The translations under genes and the position numbers were made by a program. This document shows, piece after piece, positions 45,134 to 46,720 of a stretch of DNA of 64,000 nucleotides; positions within the stretch are counted from its first letter, which is position 1, and each line of letters starts with the position of its first letter. The notes below the pieces were generated by a model. The model searched no databases, was not told where the DNA came from, and saw only the letters and a program-made list of their open reading frames with translations. The DNA lies in NCBI RefSeq assembly GCF_000220395.1, contig NW_004086103.1, positions 21,821 through 85,820 of the forward strand, in the 5' to 3' direction. The stretch is from Ichthyophthirius multifiliis (lineage: Eukaryota > Ciliophora > Oligohymenophorea > Hymenostomatida).

Positions 45134-45137
<4 letters not shown>
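45091..45137 (-). promoter_or_regulatory. SECIS-like hairpin directly after the thioredoxin reductase stop
   Basis: On the mRNA strand, CCAACTGCTTT (45128-45118) pairs with AAGGCAGTTGG (45111-45101), forming an 11-base-pair stem that caps an A/G-rich loop, AGGAAA. TGAT follows the 3' arm immediately, as the 3' half of a SECIS quartet would; GAGAG on the 5' side can pair with CTCTT beyond it. The 8-bp GC-rich core is exceptional in this AT-rich DNA and stem length suits a SECIS helix II. The 5' side reads GGG where AUGA is expected, so the motif is not canonical. A second complement (TTGAGAGGG with CCCTCTCAA at 45064-45072) offers an alternative lower stem. Role inferred from position. Confidence 0.55.

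Positions 45138-46720
<1,583 letters not shown>

Follow-up and report, generated by a model that had tools for sequence, protein, structure and literature searches.

Can a cell that has UGA as its only stop codon read this codon as selenocysteine (Sec) and, two codons later in the same mRNA, obey it as a stop? The question is raised by a thioredoxin reductase (TrxR) gene of the ciliate Ichthyophthirius multifiliis, a parasite of fish, located in the stretch of DNA analysed here (64,000 nucleotides; assembly GCF_000220395.1, contig NW_004086103.1, positions 21,821 to 85,820), which is referred to below as the window. The window has a G+C content of 15.4 %, and the genome assembly comprises 45.0 Mb on 937 contigs. 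From the sequence comparisons described below, the gene very probably encodes a selenocysteine-containing thioredoxin reductase of I. multifiliis, in which the first of two closely spaced UGA codons would be decoded as Sec and the second as stop.

Gene structure and C-terminal end

The gene (C720) is encoded on the minus strand, which a preliminary description of the window had left unstated, and is composed of three exons. Exon 1 (46310..46720, minus strand, 411 nt) starts with ATG, contains the redox motif CVNVGC and gives the same N-terminus as the public protein; exon 2 (45247..46242, minus strand) comprises 996 nt, and exon 3 (45134..45199, minus strand, 66 nt) would encode ...KESGC-Sec-G-stop, as judged from the sequence and from an alignment with rat TrxR1. 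All exon lengths are multiples of three, as had been claimed, and the two introns (67 and 47 nt) both have GT..AG borders. Read 5' to 3' on the minus strand, positions 45148-45134 give GGT TGC TGA GGT TGA, the ending that had been attributed to this three-exon TrxR gene. The first TGA, read here as selenocysteine, occupies 45140..45142 (minus strand) and the second, read as the stop, 45134..45136 (minus strand). Among the in-frame codons of the spliced coding sequence there are 12 TAA, 0 TAG and 2 TGA.

The spliced product is a 100 % match to a public I. multifiliis protein, annotated as a thioredoxin and glutathione reductase family protein, which has 488 residues and ends ...KESGC, directly before the first TGA. 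It was assigned to the NCBIfam family TIGR01438 with 654 bits (cut-off 475.85). The alignment with rat TrxR1 (1h6v; E 2.1e-169) reaches the last residue and places the first TGA on the Sec position of Gly-Cys-Sec-Gly, as previously proposed; in this alignment U (the first TGA) is passed by the tool as C, and its end meets the end of the crystal sequence. The predicted C-terminus is Gly-Cys-Sec-Gly with UGA at the Sec codon. In length and in its GC-Sec-G ending the protein is like mammalian TrxR1, which, in contrast, is encoded in the standard code with other stop codons available.

Paralogues and database homologues

A C-terminal domain search of this enzyme class in the genome gave eight matches in six genes, four of which are TrxR genes. 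All four end Cys-TGA-(GGT or GCT)-TGA, which makes the ending in the window more than a chance arrangement. C921 (L006) has the ending ESGC-TGA-GGT-TGA of the window gene and is a second GCUG-type copy; C906 (L002) and C584 (L005) end KTSC-TGA-GCT-TGA and KDMC-TGA-GCT-TGA, respectively, and would thus carry Cys-Sec-Ala rather than Cys-Sec-Gly. For these three paralogues, available as pieces or as a public protein, the best family was again TIGR01438, at scores below its whole-protein cut-off. The remaining two genes (C7 and C357) had dihydrolipoyl dehydrogenase as their best family and a plain TGA end. The proteins of C720 and C921 have 54 of 81 C-terminal residues in common. Two apparent one-base frame slips, which may be due to sequencing error or decay, were seen in homopolymer runs of C921 (near 1341-1356 and 1481-1495).

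After the second UGA, a further in-frame TGA follows 11, 56, 1 and 37 sense codons on in C720, C921, C906 and C584, respectively; tandem stops are described as over-represented in such ciliates (PMC6879139).

Proteins resembling C906 and C584, with the endings ..EKTSC and ..DKDTC, were found in Tetrahymena malaccensis, and ..EKTSC is also the ending of a Pseudocohnilembus protein; both types therefore look older than these species. In two homologue searches, of each of which the best 120 matches were considered, 218 of the 231 distinct homologues listed end at Cys and 13 otherwise; by type of ending there are 198 GC, 20 other Cys, one GCxG and 12 others. Such Cys endings are as expected if the records were cut at a Sec codon, although they could also be taken at face value: with the first TGA as a plain stop, the enzyme would have 488 amino acids and end ...KESGC, GGT TGA would be untranslated, and the public protein and the listed homologues would be correct as they stand. 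This is very unlikely, in that cutting at a Sec codon is what annotation pipelines do, the TrxR alignment continues through Sec-Gly, the second TGA is in the same place in all four paralogues, and a Sec pathway is present in the genome (see below). The comparison suggests that Sec codons have caused truncation or misreading in public records of ciliate TrxR, and also in that of the I. multifiliis glutathione peroxidase (GPx).

Selenocysteine pathway and other Sec-site TGA codons

Genes for tRNA-Sec, SPS2, SepSecS and eEFSec were found in the I. multifiliis genome. The tRNA-Sec gene scored 62.9 bits against a cut-off of 47, and its anticodon loop was read by eye from the sequence as TTTCAAG (anticodon TCA); ARAGORN called no tRNA at this locus. 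SepSecS was matched at 1.9e-106 and domain III of eEFSec at 2.2e-22, and SPS2 was recovered in three pieces, each below the whole-protein cut-off.

In the 20 stretches matched in the genome searches, 87 in-frame stop triplets were counted (68 TAA, 15 TAG and 4 TGA). The four TGA triplets are accounted for by one Sec site each in GPx, in SPS2 and in two SelW-like genes, and since no other TGA was met within these stretches, TGA is not a general sense codon. The SPS2 site has the context KG-TGA-GCKVP, the two SelW-like genes C60 (L022) and C757 (L023), both with SECIS candidates, have CGS-TGA-GY, and the GPx gene (L017, G000:C438:2465-2830, minus strand) has its in-frame TGA in the context NVACK-TGA-GLTS; a SECIS candidate lies 66 nt past the stop of the GPx gene. 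As given in PMC7409322, the GPx of I. multifiliis has an incomplete tetrad X/Q/W/N, in which X may be Sec.

These counts also bear on the possibility that the first UGA of the TrxR gene stands for an amino acid other than Sec, for instance Cys or Trp, in line with its use in some other ciliates: UGA is reported to mean Cys in Euplotes (PMC3737529) and Trp or stop in Condylostoma (PMC4967479). The small share of TGA among the stop triplets found in frame within conserved stretches (4 of 87, all four at Sec sites) and the presence of a UCA tRNA of the Sec type in the genome argue against such a reading, which is even less probable than a plain stop. Sec at the first TGA and a stop at the second is by far the best reading, because the alignment extends to the last residue, four paralogues share the same ending, the Sec pathway genes are present and other TGA codons lie at Sec sites. 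By the same evidence, the earlier proposal that the sole stop codon is recoded and then obeyed two codons on is supported.

SECIS candidates

A SECIS search rule that recovers a candidate in each of the six Tetrahymena elements in print was applied to the 3' UTR of the window gene and yielded one clear candidate; one of 60 shuffled sequences was as good. The candidate (44747..44792, minus strand) begins 342 nt after the TrxR stop and has an AUGA..GA core, 11 pairs and an A-rich loop (-5.1 kcal/mol). A stricter form of the rule also matched 14 of 232 control tiles, one of which proved to be a SelT-like locus (L024, C679) with a very strong element (-14.1 kcal/mol). The Sec exon of this SelT-like gene was not seen.

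Candidates were obtained in five of the eight genes in which a Sec-site TGA was seen, namely, under the strict rule, in C720, C906 and GPx and, under a somewhat less strict one, in the two SelW-like genes (C60 and C757). The strict rule gave no candidate for C921, C584 and SPS2; a relaxed scan gave weak extra candidates for C921 and SPS2 and none for C584. An Rfam search of the TrxR locus returned seven matches up to E 10, all under their gathering scores and none of them a SECIS element. At 342 nt past the stop, the window candidate is an outlier, the other candidates lying at about 64-117 nt; for SelW C757 a second, better-scoring match was found far downstream. The other I. multifiliis candidates have the ordinary AUGA..GA core. 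SECIS-directed recoding is likely to operate in the I. multifiliis genome, and the assignment of 44792-44747 as the SECIS element of the window TrxR is suggestive, not proven.

Downstream of the TrxR 3' UTR lies a convergent gene (41571-43892, plus strand) that looks Kelch-like by eye, with MYIFGG-type repeats in several frames and short introns between them.

Comparison with known systems

Sec use alongside a UGA-only stop code had been noted as known from Tetrahymena, which is borne out by the three Sec-TrxR genes of T. thermophila; the putative selenoproteins with SECIS elements listed for this species are three TrxR, two GPx and SPS2 (PMC2612030, Table 2). The window gene is like the T. 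thermophila Sec TrxRs in enzyme family, in the use of UGA for Sec and in having UGA as the sole stop; theirs have a SECIS element in the 3' UTR, and T. thermophila is a related hymenostome. The TrxRs described for Condylostoma and Parduczia are likewise ciliate enzymes with a penultimate Sec and with UGA also serving as stop (PMC4967479). They differ in that UGA is there also read as Trp and the SECIS element is placed shortly after the Sec codon, as against 342 nt past the stop for the window candidate (PMC4967479). The same paper already describes a threefold use of UGA in ciliates other than this one, including the TrxR case (PMC4967479).

The preliminary description had also held that every codon is used as an amino acid. 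As a reading of the sequence this is supported, but it is not new: the I. multifiliis genome paper mentions that all 64 codons are potentially translated (PMC3341644), and the same potential is stated for Tetrahymena (PMC7409322). The tight spacing of the two TGA codons, which had been singled out as the point of note, is no peculiarity of this gene, because Sec is next to last in TrxR and any such enzyme in a UGA-only stop code will have this spacing. With the principle in print for Tetrahymena and in the I. multifiliis genome paper, the finding adds little on the code itself. The words 'selenoprotein', 'SECIS' and 'thioredoxin' are absent from the main text of that paper (PMC3341644), and the I. 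multifiliis TrxR is not named as a selenoprotein in the titles and opening lines of abstracts of the open-access literature searched. The interest of the gene lies in the fact that, within nine bases of a single mRNA, the sole stop codon of the cell would have to be understood in two ways, so that discrimination between Sec and stop UGA could be tested without another stop codon interfering.

Hairpin behind the Sec codon and proposed mechanism

In the best-supported reading, with Sec at the first UGA and termination at the second, a working idea for the discrimination between the two codons is a competition at each UGA that would be tilted by position. Where the competition for Sec at the first UGA is lost, the ribosome would release a product with the end ...KESGC; where it is won, Sec and Gly would be added, after which the release factor would normally terminate at the second UGA. 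For human TR1 and Euplotes TR, the SECIS elements are reported to limit Sec to the C-terminal region (Turanov et al., PMC3737529); restriction to this region cannot separate two UGA codons three bases apart.

A 53-nt hairpin (45087..45139, minus strand) starts directly after the Sec codon of the window gene and encloses the stop codon. It has an 18-pair stem with a 2-nt bulge and the loop AGGAAA, and the GGU codon pairs with ACC. Folding of the 70 nt that follow the Sec codon gives -27.1 kcal/mol (z -4.06; 0 of 300 shuffles as good); for a different 83-nt stretch a z-score of -2.11 was obtained (9 of 200 shuffles as good), so that the z-score varies with the stretch folded. In C921 the corresponding 70 nt fold with -17.2 kcal/mol (z -3.38; 0 of 300 shuffles), with a hairpin in the same place. 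Both C720 and C921 have, immediately 3' of the Sec UGA, a stable stem-loop of the kind expected of a redefinition element. For C906 and C584, folding of the corresponding 70 nt was ordinary and the hairpin absent; folding was likewise ordinary behind the Sec codons of GPx, SPS2 and SelW C757 and intermediate for SelW C60 (16 of 300 shuffles). Among 8584 control windows of 75 nt, taken from both strands and including tRNA genes, coding DNA and a few overlapping loci, 2 reached -26.9 kcal/mol (the level of C720) and 71 reached -17.2 kcal/mol (the level of C921).

The hairpins of C720 and C921 have in common their place, a stem and, by eye, a CCAACT/AGTTGGT core, with CCAAC starting at nt 12 past the Sec codon in each; the outer stem starts immediately in C720 and after 7 nt in C921. 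Aligned with each other, the stretches after the stop were no more similar than shuffled sequences (926 of 2000). The second introns of the two genes gave an alignment score of 21.0 versus a shuffle mean of 16.7, which indicates that neutral DNA between them has largely diverged. An origin of the hairpin as a repeat or transposon end was considered and rejected, the sequence being present in the genome as a single copy, its own (simple repeats are skipped by this search).

A ribosome that has a hairpin about 12 nt ahead would meet it at its entrance. The CCAAC core of the hairpin, 12 nt past the Sec codon, would be at this entrance while the first UGA waits, and the stem would be partly opened by the time the second UGA arrives. 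The hairpin might in this way make recoding more likely at the first UGA than at the second. On this hypothesis, the probability of which is rather low, it would hold the ribosome so that the first UGA is recoded and would be partly melted when the second is in the A site, which would allow opposite meanings three bases apart.

Probably, and in our estimate by a reasonable chance above even, the hairpin is unrelated to recoding and either has a role in the 3' UTR, in stability or processing, or is due to chance. It is present in two of four TrxR genes, C906 and C584 facing the same two UGA codons without one; the similarity of the C720 and C921 sequences is not above that of shuffles, and the stability of C921 is matched by the 71 control windows mentioned. 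Against this stand its location, which in either gene adjoins the Sec codon with the CCAAC at the same nucleotide, and the scarcity of control windows as stable as the C720 hairpin (in a control set that includes tRNA genes, coding DNA and some overlapping loci).

It is unlikely, and clearly less probable than a role in holding the ribosome, that the hairpin is the SECIS element itself, occupying the place close past the Sec codon that is described for the TrxRs of Condylostoma and Parduczia (PMC4967479), although C921 has no other strict candidate. The core AUGA..GA with unpaired AA at the apex was not found in the hairpin, which the SECIS scans passed over: C720 has a 3' UGAU and several unpaired bases after the 5' UGA (C721-type register, read by eye), C921 is without GA on the 3' side (read by eye), and the ordinary core is carried by the other I. 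multifiliis candidates.

Stem-loops adjoining some Sec UGA codons, according to a review, inhibit termination and promote Sec insertion (PMC8704476). No hairpin after the Sec codon of a ciliate TrxR was found in the titles and opening lines of abstracts of the open-access literature searched. The putative I. multifiliis element resembles the selenocysteine redefinition elements (SRE) next to Sec UGA codons, as in SELENON (PMC8704476), in that both are stem-loops on the immediate 3' side of such a codon; the former differs in enclosing the true stop codon and in lying mostly in the 3' UTR.
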